Below are positions 43,502 through 53,568 of a DNA stretch of 64,000 bases, one piece after another. The stretch is from positions 62,001-126,000 of the forward strand of contig JAFGBM010000002.1 of assembly GCA_016933155.1 (NCBI GenBank), in the 5' to 3' direction. How positions within the stretch are numbered: the first letter of the stretch is position 1; each line of letters starts with the position of its first letter. The position numbers and the translations under genes are program-made. This DNA is from Demequinaceae bacterium. GTDB taxonomy: Bacteria; Actinomycetota; Actinomycetes; Actinomycetales; Demequinaceae. The notes beneath the pieces were generated by a model. It was given only the letters and a program-made list of their open reading frames with translations. It had not been told where the DNA came from and searched no databases.

Positions 43502-44871
43502 TGGCCGAGGACGCGCGGAGGGTGCACCTCATCGGGGTGGGGGGTGCGGGGATGTCGGCGGTCGCCTTCCTCTTATCGCGGAAGGGCGTCCGGGTGTCCG
43601 GTTCGGACGGCGCGGACGGGCCGTACCTCCGGGCGCTCGCCCGGGAGGGCGTCGACGTAAGGGTCGGCCATGATCCGGCCCTCATCGACGGGGTGGCCGA
43701 GGTCATCGTCTCCTCGGCCATCCACGACACCAATCCGGAACTCGCCGCCGCGCGAGCCGCGGGCGTCCCCGTCATCCACCGGTCGGAGGGGTTGGCGAGG
43801 GCCGTCGAGGGAATGCGGGTCGTTGCGATCGCGGGGGCGCACGGGAAGACCACAACGGCGGCGATGACGGTCCGGGCCCTGCATGGGGCGGGGATCGATG
43901 CCACCTTCGCCATCGGTGCTCCCGTCCTCGGGGTTGAGGGAGCCGTTGGGGGCGCCTATGCGGGGGAATCGGACGTCGCCGTCATCGAGGCGGACGAGTC
44001 GGACGGTTCCTTTCTCGCCTACGAGCCAGAGGTGGCGGTCATCACCAACGTCGAGGCCGATCATCTGGACCACTACGGGACGATCGAGGCCTTGGAGGAC
44101 GCCTTCGTCGCCTTTACGCGCCGTGCGGGCCTTGTCGTGGCCTGTGTCGACGACGAGGGCACGGGCCGGGTGATGGGCAGGATCCGTGAGGGCGGGGCCA
44201 GGGTGGTGACCTACGGTTCGGCCGAGGAGGCCGAGATTCGGGTGGACGACGAGGGGGTCTCAAGGGAGGGGAGGCGGACCCCGATTCGGATCCCCCAGCC
44301 CGGTTGGCACAACCGACTGAACGCCGTGGCCGCCTGGACGGCCGCCGTCGCCATGGGGGCGGACGGGGACGCTGCGGCCGAGGGGCTCTCCGCCTATCGG
44401 GGTACCGGTCGAAGGTTCGAGCACCGGGGAACCGTCGACGGGGTCGAGGTCTACGACGACTACGCCCACCACCCGACCGAGATCGTCGCCCTCCTGAAGG
44501 CCGTGAGGGAGCACACCTCCGGGCGCCTCGTCCTTCTCTTCCAGCCCCACCTCTACTCTCGGACCAGGCTGCTGGCGGAGCGGTTTGCCGCCGCCCTGGC
44601 CGTCCCCGACGCCGATGTCATCGTGACGGGGATCTACGGCGCGCGCGAGGACCCGGAGCCCGGGGTGAACGGGGACACCATCGGTCGGCTCGTTTCTTCG
44701 GCCGAGGGGGGGACCTTCCGGGTGATCGAGGACCTCGACGAGGCCGCGGTCGAGGCGGCCCGGCTCGCCCGGCGAGGAGGAATAGTCGTGACGGTGGGGG
44801 CGGGTTCGGTCACGGATGCCGCCGATCGGATACTGGAGGAGCTCCGGAGGCGTGAGGCTGGGCGTGCCTAG
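43498..44871 (+). CDS. murC: UDP-N-acetylmuramate--L-alanine ligase MurC
   Basis: The 457-residue protein has HLIGVGGAGMSAVAFLL, the ATP loop AGAHGKTTTAAM (about 116-127), EADESDGSFL, NVEADHLDHYG, and VYDDYAHHPTEI followed by FQPHLYSRT. It attaches L-Ala to UDP-MurNAc. Starts at GTG 43498 or ATG 43501; the first overlaps the murG stop. murB, which would normally supply the substrate and often follows murC, is absent. Confidence 0.96.
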   Translation: MMAEDARRVHLIGVGGAGMSAVAFLLSRKGVRVSGSDGADGPYLRALAREGVDVRVGHDPALIDGVAEVIVSSAIHDTNPELAAARAAGVPVIHRSEGLARAVEGMRVVAIAGAHGKTTTAAMTVRALHGAGIDATFAIGAPVLGVEGAVGGAYAGESDVAVIEADESDGSFLAYEPEVAVITNVEADHLDHYGTIEALEDAFVAFTRRAGLVVACVDDEGTGRVMGRIREGGARVVTYGSAEEAEIRVDDEGVSREGRRTPIRIPQPGWHNRLNAVAAWTAAVAMGADGDAAAEGLSAYRGTGRRFEHRGTVDGVEVYDDYAHHPTEIVALLKAVREHTSGRLVLLFQPHLYSRTRLLAERFAAALAVPDADVIVTGIYGAREDPEPGVNGDTIGRLVSSAEGGTFRVIEDLDEAAVEAARLARRGGIVVTVGAGSVTDAADRILEELRRREAGRA

Positions 44872-45580
44872 TCCGGGACCCAGCCGGCCCAGCGCGGCAC
44901 GCATCGTTGTCCGACGCCTGGGTCTTCTCGCCCTGGTGGGAGCCCTGGTCTGGGGTGTGTGGTGGTCCCCCTTGTTCGCCCTCAGGTCCGAGGGGGTGTC
45001 GATTTCCGTCGACGGGAGCCTCGTGGATCCGGCCGAGGTCCGGGAGGCGGTCGAGCCATTCATCGGGGTGTCCCTGCCCCGACTCGGTCTCGACGAGGTT
45101 GAGGCGGCCGTCGCGGCCGTCCCCGGGGTGAAGGGAGCGACGGCAACACTGTCGTGGCCGCACGGGCTTGCGATCGAGGTGGTCGAGAGGGTGCCGATCG
45201 CCGCCATCGCCGATTCCAGGCTGGGGTACCTCCTGGTCGACGTCGAGGGGGCGGTGTTGGCGTCCTCCACCGCGGCTCCCGAAGGGATGCCGGTCGTGAC
45301 GGTGCCCGTCGGCGAGGAGAATTCGAGGATCCTCATGGCGGCGTTGACGGTGGCGGGCTCCCTCCCGCCGGAGTTGGCGGTCCGGGTCGAGGCGGTGCGG
45401 GCCGAGACCGAGGATTCCGTGACCCTTTTCCTCCGGAACGGCCCGCGGATCGAGTGGGGAAGCGCGGAGGATTCCGCCCTCAAGGCCGAGGTCGTCGTGG
45501 TGCTGTTGGGGTCGGATGCGGCCTCATCCGCCGTCATCGACGTCTCGGCCCCGACCCTGCCCGTGACCCGAGAGGGGTAG
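44852..45580 (+). CDS. ftsQ: Cell division protein FtsQ
   Basis: The 242-residue protein has a short basic cytoplasmic lead, a membrane helix (about 25-43), a POTRA domain (about 48-115, with VREAVEPFIGVSLPRLGLDEVEAAVAAVPGVKGATATL) and a C-terminal beta domain. FtsQ links FtsL/FtsB to the divisome. The start is uncertain: GTG 44852 and GTG 44864 both lie after GGAGG and inside murC. Position between murC and ftsZ supports the call. Confidence 0.9.
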   Translation: MRLGVPSPGPSRPSAARIVVRRLGLLALVGALVWGVWWSPLFALRSEGVSISVDGSLVDPAEVREAVEPFIGVSLPRLGLDEVEAAVAAVPGVKGATATLSWPHGLAIEVVERVPIAAIADSRLGYLLVDVEGAVLASSTAAPEGMPVVTVPVGEENSRILMAALTVAGSLPPELAVRVEAVRAETEDSVTLFLRNGPRIEWGSAEDSALKAEVVVVLLGSDAASSAVIDVSAPTLPVTREG

Positions 45581-45664
45581 GCCGCGCTTTCGGCTTGTGG
45601 CAGCGACACGCGCGCCGTTCCCCGATTCAACGGGGTCCCCGCCGTACCGTAGGCGTGGACAAAC

Positions 45665-45702
45665 TTGACATAACTCTAACCTTCAACTTGAGGGTGAGAG
45701 TT
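45665..45702 (+). promoter_or_regulatory. 31-bp near-perfect palindrome with TTGACA upstream of ftsZ
   Basis: AACTCT (45672-45677) mirrors AGAGTT (45697-45702), and ACCTTCAA (45679-45686) mirrors TTGAGGGT (45688-45695) around a single central C; only one position is unpaired and one is G-T. TTGACA (45665-45670) adjoins it. The layout resembles MerR-family operator-promoters; FtsR, a MerR-type activator of ftsZ, is known in Corynebacterium. Confidence 0.7.
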
Positions 45703-45719
45703 GGGCGAAAGGGCGGCAC

Positions 45720-46895
45720 GTGGCCTCTCCACAGAACTACATCACGGCGATCAAGGTCGTCGGCGTCGGTGGTGGTGGCGTCAACGCGGTCAACCGCATG
45801 ATCGACGTCGGCCTCAAGGGGGCGGAGTTCATCGCCGTCAACACCGACGCTCAGGCGCTTCTCATGTCCGACGCCGACGTAAAGCTCGACATTGGACGCG
45901 AACTGACGAAGGGCCTCGGCGCGGGTGCGGATCCGGAGGTCGGGCGTCGCGCGGCCGAGGACCATCTCGACGAGATCGAGGACGCCCTTCGGGGCAGTGA
46001 CATGGTCTTCGTCACGGCAGGGGAAGGCGGAGGCACCGGAACCGGAGGGGCTCCCGTGGTCGCCCGTACGGCCCGGATGATGGGGGCGCTGACGGTCGGG
46101 GTCGTCACCAAGCCCTTCGGCTTCGAAGGACGCCGCCGGGCCGATCAAGCGGAGGCGGGCGTCGAGGCGCTTCGTCCCGAGGTCGATACCCTCATCGTTA
46201 TCCCCAACGATCGCCTCCTGGAGATCAACGACCAGAAACTCTCGGTGCTCGGGGCGTTCGCGGCCGCGGATCAGGTTCTTCAAGGGGCCGTCCAGGGCAT
46301 CACCGACCTCATCACCACCCCCGGGCTCATCAACGTCGATTTCAACGACGTCCGGAGCGTGATGCAGGGCGCGGGCACAGCCCTCATGGGGGTGAACTCG
46401 GCCAGGGGAGAGAACCGGGCCATCGAGGCGGCCGAGGCGGCCATCACGTCGCCCCTTCTCGAGGCCAGCATCGAAGGGGCCCACGGAGTCCTTCTCAGCG
46501 TCGCGGGGGGCTCCACCCTCGGCATCAAGGAGGTGGAAACCGCAGCCAAGCTCGTCCGCGAGGCCGCGCACCCCGAGGCGAACATCATCTTCGGGACCGT
46601 CATCGACGACGCCCTCGGGGACGAGATTCGAATCACCGTGATCGCCGCGGGCTTTGACGGGGGGTCGCCCCCGATGCGCCGTCATGCCGGCGCCCTCGCT
46701 CAGGTGGATGGCGCCAAGCCCCGCAAGGCCCCGGCGAAAGCTCCCGTCGAGGCCCTCCTCGACATACCCGTCGAACCCCGGAAGCCTGAGGTCGAGGAAT
46801 CCGGGGAGGAAGCCGAGGAGACGGAGGTCCTCAGGGTTCCGGGAAGCCTCTTCGAAGAGGAGGAGCTCGACATCCCCGACTTCCTGAAGAGGTGA
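45720..46895 (+). CDS. ftsZ: Cell division GTPase FtsZ
   Basis: FtsZ polymerises into the Z-ring. The 391-residue protein has a short N-terminus, [12 protein letters not shown], the tubulin signature GGGTGTG (103-109), the T7 loop region [11 protein letters not shown], and a variable linker rich in Pro/Glu (about 325-375). It ends in DIPDFLKR, the conserved peptide that binds SepF in organisms lacking FtsA. The start GTG 45720 fits the conserved N-terminus. It overlaps pgeF by 4 nt (GTGA). The 139-nt gap before it contains a large palindrome. Confidence 0.98.
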
Positions 46896-48176: not shown

Positions 48177-48464
48177 ATGTCCGTCGTCATCGGGATCGTC
48201 CAACTGGTGATTTTGCTCTTCGTCGTCCTCCTTTTCGGCCGGGTCGTCGTCAACCTCATCTCCCTCTTCTCCCGCTCGTGGAGGCCGCGGGGGGTGACCT
48301 TGCTCCTCGTCGAGGGGGTGCTTTCGGCCACGGATCCCCCGGTGCGTTTTGTGCGGGCGCTCCTGCCGGATATCAACCTCGGAGGGGTTCGCCTTGACCT
48401 GAGTGTGTTGGTTCTGATGATCGTGGCCATGCTGGCGATCGACCTTTTATCGCTCGCTCAATGA
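48177..48464 (+). CDS. yggT: YggT family membrane protein
   Basis: The 95-residue protein has two membrane helices (about 5-27 and 70-92) and the YggT core RVVVNLISLF...LLLVEGVLSATDPPVRFVRALLPDINLGGVRLDLSVLVL. Its position between sepF and divIVA is conserved in Gram-positives. Function is unclear; roles in envelope or osmotic homeostasis have been proposed. Confidence 0.92.
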   Translation: MSVVIGIVQLVILLFVVLLFGRVVVNLISLFSRSWRPRGVTLLLVEGVLSATDPPVRFVRALLPDINLGGVRLDLSVLVLMIVAMLAIDLLSLAQ

Positions 48465-53520: not shown

Positions 53521-53568
53521 GGGTCGGGCGGGTCTGCCTAGCGGCAGACAAGCCCGACCCGGCCTTTT
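53521..53568 (+). terminator. Intrinsic terminator after hppA
   Basis: GGGTCGGGC (53521-53529) pairs with GCCCGACCC (53552-53560), and the inner GTCTGCC pairs with GGCAGAC around a TAGC loop. GGCCTTTT follows. Confidence 0.9.

Follow-up and report, generated by a model that had tools for sequence, protein, structure and literature searches.

The window, that is, the whole 64-kb stretch of Demequinaceae DNA that was analysed, contains a dcw cluster in which ftsZ is preceded by an ftsQ/divIB-like gene. The closest named proteins to its FtsZ are those of Demequina (85-88%). The features of the ftsQ-ftsZ region are as follows.

44816..45580, plus strand: ftsQ/divIB-like gene, upstream, assigned from ORF position and gene order in the dcw cluster
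45645..45650, plus strand: TACCGT, fitting TA[ACG]C[GT]T, 14 nt upstream of TTGACA; candidate -10 of a putative FtsR-independent upstream promoter
45665..45670, plus strand: TTGACA, candidate -35 of the FtsR-controlled ftsZ promoter
45672..45702, no strand: 31-bp palindrome, proposed full FtsR operator with four half-sites
45673-45677, 45679-45683, 45691-45695 and 45697-45701: half-sites AnnnT within the palindrome
45672..45696, plus strand: predicted FtsR site A, 25 bp; 17/25 to the C. glutamicum site, 17/25 to the M. tuberculosis site
45678..45702, plus strand: predicted FtsR site B, 25 bp, 6 bp downstream of site A and overlapping it; 17/25 to the C. glutamicum site, 18/25 to the M. tuberculosis site (minus strand)
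45690..45695, plus strand: GAGGGT, candidate -10 with a 19-bp spacer from TTGACA
45707..45713, plus strand: GAAAGGG, ftsZ ribosome-binding site, from sequence and spacing to GTG
45720..46895, plus strand: ftsZ, the target gene (TIGR00065, 402 bits against a cut-off of 295.2)

The palindrome reads AACTCTAACCTTCAA-C-TTGAGGGTGAGAGTT and is centred at 45687. Its two 15-nt arms flank a single central base and are complementary at 13 of 15 pairs; A/G at 45678/45696 and T/G at 45682/45692 break the pattern. The spacer to the GTG start codon at 45720 is 17 nt (45703-45719). These values agree with the sequence-only reading, which had described a 31-bp palindrome with one mismatch and one G-T pair, 17 nt before ftsZ. 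The TTGACA hexamer that it had placed next to the palindrome is separated from it by one base, so that TTGACAT directly precedes the palindrome. As had been claimed, the 139-nt gap between ftsQ and ftsZ (45581-45719) is longer than any other between neighbouring genes in the region from murE (35812) to divIVA (48497), since a yggT-like ORF (48177-48464) occupies a later gap. When the ftsQ-ftsZ gap was shuffled 5000 times with dinucleotides preserved, an equally good 15-nt inverted repeat (gap 0-8) turned up in 4 of the shuffles. A few repeats of the same quality are present elsewhere in the 64 kb (26866, 53522-53525); the repeat alone is therefore unusual, not unique.

Control of ftsZ by FtsR, and the conservation of this circuit in Actinobacteria, were described in a study of 2019 (PMC6683498). 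In C. glutamicum, FtsR binds AACCCTAAAGTAAAGGTTGAGGGTA at ftsZ, as shown by ChAP-seq and gel shift, and ftsZ expression falls in cells without FtsR; a similar M. tuberculosis site (Rv1828, ftsZ P1 promoter) was listed in the same study (Kraxner et al. 2019; PMC6683498). Within the window, the C. glutamicum site is matched best by the two stretches beginning at 45672 and 45678, with 17 of 25 bases identical in each case. The M. tuberculosis site matches at the same two positions, with 18/25 at 45678 (on the minus strand) and 17/25 at 45672. The match in two registers indicates that the palindrome corresponds to two 25-bp sites overlapped with an offset of 6 bp. In the whole genome (1.89 Mb in 15 contigs), the sole exact match to the 25-bp dimer pattern AACYYT-N13-ARRGTT is at 45678-45702, its one-mismatch matches elsewhere being at the control level, and a 29-base pattern spanning all four half-sites has a zero-mismatch match only at ftsZ. 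Neither search revealed a further FtsR target in the genome above the control level besides ftsZ.

The palindrome resembles the C. glutamicum operator in its position upstream of ftsZ, in the half-sites ACYCT and AGGGT, and in the 17/25 agreement in either register. Whereas the published C. glutamicum site is one 25-bp inverted repeat, however, the element here extends over 31 bp, has four half-sites and carries the fixed TTGACAT flank. In C. glutamicum, the site is centred at -73 relative to the mapped transcription start (PMC6683498). The 25-bp stretch here ends 23 bp (site A) or 17 bp (site B) before the start codon, while the published range is 41-193 bp. Relative to the Rv1828 site of M. 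tuberculosis, 17-18 of 25 bases are the same. Relatives in the Mycobacteriaceae share TTGACAT and the four half-sites with the operator here, but differ in bases 13-19 (NTGGTTG, against CAACTTG here), and in most of them the spacing from operator to start codon is longer.

The sequence-only reading had found no ftsR gene in the window and had proposed looking for one elsewhere in the genome. Such a gene is present outside the window, on contig C9 (L005:1093-1845, minus strand). It has 250 codons, is of the MerR type and scores 174.5 bits against NCBIfam NF050798 'transcriptional regulator FtsR', the curated cut-off of which is 150. On one side of it lies a garA-like FHA gene and on the other a second gene of the MerR type, in the order garA, ftsR, second merR. 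The same neighbourhood is found in C. glutamicum and has been published as a conserved locus (PMC6683498). In the ftsR cluster here (L245:1633-3516, minus strand), the two merR genes lack the bifunctional nuclease gene that usually separates them. The host FtsR is divergent in its C-terminal half, with 30-35% overall identity to FtsR of other families. A single-sequence phmmer search with it did not reach Rv1828; a profile of 13 FtsR sequences, the host's included, found 5ydc, the solved C-terminal domain of M. tuberculosis Rv1828, with an E-value of 3.3e-30.

A search of related genomes for the palindrome, also proposed in the sequence-only reading, found the element upstream of ftsZ in 23 of 24 Demequinaceae genomes, including the host's own. 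The element was likewise present in 79 of 80 named actinobacterial ftsZ loci chosen for FtsZ similarity, in most other actinomycete families examined, and in nearly all of the 30 Mycobacteriaceae loci examined. The exceptions in the Mycobacteriaceae are G161, with no element, G156, with a single 25-bp site, and G180, with an operator 6 bp shorter. When operators were scored without anchoring on TTGACAT, the exact heptamer was found at a fixed spacing before the operator in 56 of 69 genomes. The half-site ends (A and T at offsets 2/6, 8/12, 20/24 and 26/30) are kept in 54-58 of 58 distinct operators. In Microbacterium and other Microbacteriaceae (L019-L049), the half-sites are kept but TTGACAT has given way to other sequence, in most cases similar to GCATAC(C/T)(g/c)GGCAA; the ftsZ promoter seems to be rearranged in these genomes.

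The symmetry of the element was compared in 44 actinomycete sequences anchored on TGACATAA. The axis at offset 16 (45687) was the strongest, with 69% of cells paired, followed by offset 19 (58%) and the published axis at offset 13 (45%). The strongest axis is thus 3 bp off that of the published 25-bp motif, a fact that counts against the reading as an FtsR operator. No 6-bp periodicity of the information content was seen (autocorrelation of 0.04 at lag 6). The claim of four half-sites therefore rests on the half-site positions, the two-register match and the shortened operator of G180. The last of these (L213; TTGACATAACCTTCAACCTGTGGTTGAGGGTT) is shorter by exactly one 6-bp unit, which suggests a modular array of half-sites. 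There is evidence that the conserved unit is about 38 bp, composed of TTGACAT and four half-sites, and not one 25-bp repeat.

It could be supposed that the palindrome acts as RNA, either by regulating translation as a hairpin of the ftsZ leader or as a terminator for upstream transcripts. The plus strand can be folded into a hairpin by the ribosome-binding site (-24.2 kcal/mol, z -1.95). This fold, however, is mildly better than those of shuffled sequences, 9 of 200 of which were as good, and neither a T-run nor a terminator call was found at the palindrome, nor a match to any Rfam family. Across relatives, moreover, the palindromic pairs are 69% complementary, whereas the A/T ends of the half-sites and the non-palindromic TTGACAT are nearly invariant. 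Such invariance together with weak pairing fits protein-DNA contact rather than a stem. We consider a function in RNA very improbable; a hairpin, a terminator and a riboswitch were dropped because of the weak fold, the lack of an Rfam match and the sequence-specific conservation.

To relate the site to the regulator, each sequence was scored with a leave-one-out weight matrix and compared with 60 of its own dinucleotide shuffles. A site outscored every shuffle in 55 of 59 FtsR-positive genomes versus 2 of 10 FtsR-negative genomes (Fisher p 2e-6, with kinship ignored). The two genomes with a site-like sequence and no detected ftsR are G033 (91% complete, 6% contamination) and G096 (90% complete). 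Among the FtsR-positive genomes, no recognisable site was found in G042, G043 and G057, all from deep-branching families; the site of G051, also deep-branching, was not above its best shuffle, and those of G026, G121 and others were weakly above theirs. The Demequinaceae genome G002 (L109; 1.1 Mb, 89% complete) has no ftsZ operator, and ftsR, the garA orthologue and the second merR were all undetected in it. It is possibly a reduced genome, and the missing genes could also be explained by incompleteness.

Another possibility is that the palindrome is the operator of a different regulator, for example the second MerR protein beside ftsR (P0002, Rv1830-like), the gene of which is also of the MerR type and lies in the ftsR cluster. 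Four genomes of 95-100% completeness, however, keep this sister gene (E-values of 1.8e-59 in G161, 1.2e-73 in G030, 7.5e-38 in G027 and 5.5e-36 in G118) and have neither ftsR nor the site. The absence of the site despite the sister gene points to FtsR, not to its neighbour, and it is the published FtsR sites that match at the palindrome. The sister MerR protein was discarded as the regulator on account of these genomes, and we consider the operator of any other regulator very improbable.

The promoter elements around the operator were also examined. Of 62 genomes, 58 carry the hexamer TA[ACG]C[GT]T in the 35 nt that precede TTGACAT, against 2 of 283 control windows; across genomes it lies 14-21 nt upstream of TTGACA. 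By eye, it is kept in the operator-lacking G002 and G030 and probably in G161. It may be the -10 of an FtsR-independent ftsZ promoter, the FtsR site being downstream of it. A scan with the sigma-70 consensus found no promoter. The arrangement TTGACA-19-GAGGGT exists and is conserved, with A at the second position of the candidate -10 in 57 and T at the sixth in 56 of 58 distinct operators. The bases of the candidate -10 coincide with half-site bases; since this A and this T are also half-site positions, the conservation of GAGGGT is not independent.

In principle, TTGACA, which is a consensus -35 hexamer, might belong to a constitutive ftsZ promoter, and the palindrome might be incidental. Both arms of the palindrome are conserved over many genera, however, and the hexamer is missing together with the operator in the FtsR-lacking G002, G161, G030 and G027, in which no TTGACA was found in the last 150 nt before ftsZ. 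We regard an incidental palindrome as exceedingly improbable.

MerR-family regulators act on spacers of 19 bp, where they twist the DNA, and in classical MerR promoters the centres of the half-sites are about 15-17 bp apart. The ftsZ promoter here resembles those of MerR, CueR, SoxR and ZntR in having a regulator of the MerR type and inverted ACYYT/ARRGT-like half-sites, and a 19-bp spacer is possible in TTGACA-19-GAGGGT. Unlike in the classical promoters, the operator here overruns the spacer and overlaps the candidate -10, and the half-site centres are 18 bp, or 12 or 24 bp, apart.

On the basis of these results, we are highly confident that the palindrome is the FtsR operator of ftsZ, at which an FtsR dimer would bind beside TTGACA and activate ftsZ. 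FtsR control of ftsZ, which the sequence-only reading had suggested, is supported by the ftsR gene, by the match to the published sites and by the presence of the site tracking that of ftsR. Binding, activation and the use of the promoter elements would follow by analogy with C. glutamicum and M. tuberculosis. The MerR-type FtsR dimer, the gene of which lies outside the window, would occupy all four half-sites of the palindrome beside the TTGACA -35. It would thereby activate transcription of ftsZ independently of transcripts that run on from the dcw genes upstream. TTGACA and GAGGGT with their 19-bp spacer might allow a DNA-twisting step of the MerR type.

We also put forward a further hypothesis, about which we have more doubt than confidence. 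Most actinomycetes might possess a compound operator consisting of two FtsR dimer sites with a 6-bp offset, fixed in position to TTGACA. Occupancy by FtsR could then move initiation away from a constitutive promoter further upstream (TA[CG]CGT) and towards one that depends on FtsR, and C. glutamicum, the source of the 25-bp motif, might retain only part of this operator.

Starting from raw sequence, the present analysis confirmed a control of the master division gene that is known but has been little studied. Observed directly for this case were the sequence and its conservation, the presence of ftsR and the co-occurrence of site and regulator. Beyond the work of 2019, it adds the case of the Demequinaceae, the correlated absence of site and regulator with a neighbouring gene as control, and evidence that the conserved operator has four half-sites and a length of about 38 bp instead of 25 bp. 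The analysis suggests a functional operator of greater size than the published one, and this would affect the design and the reading of binding and promoter mutants.
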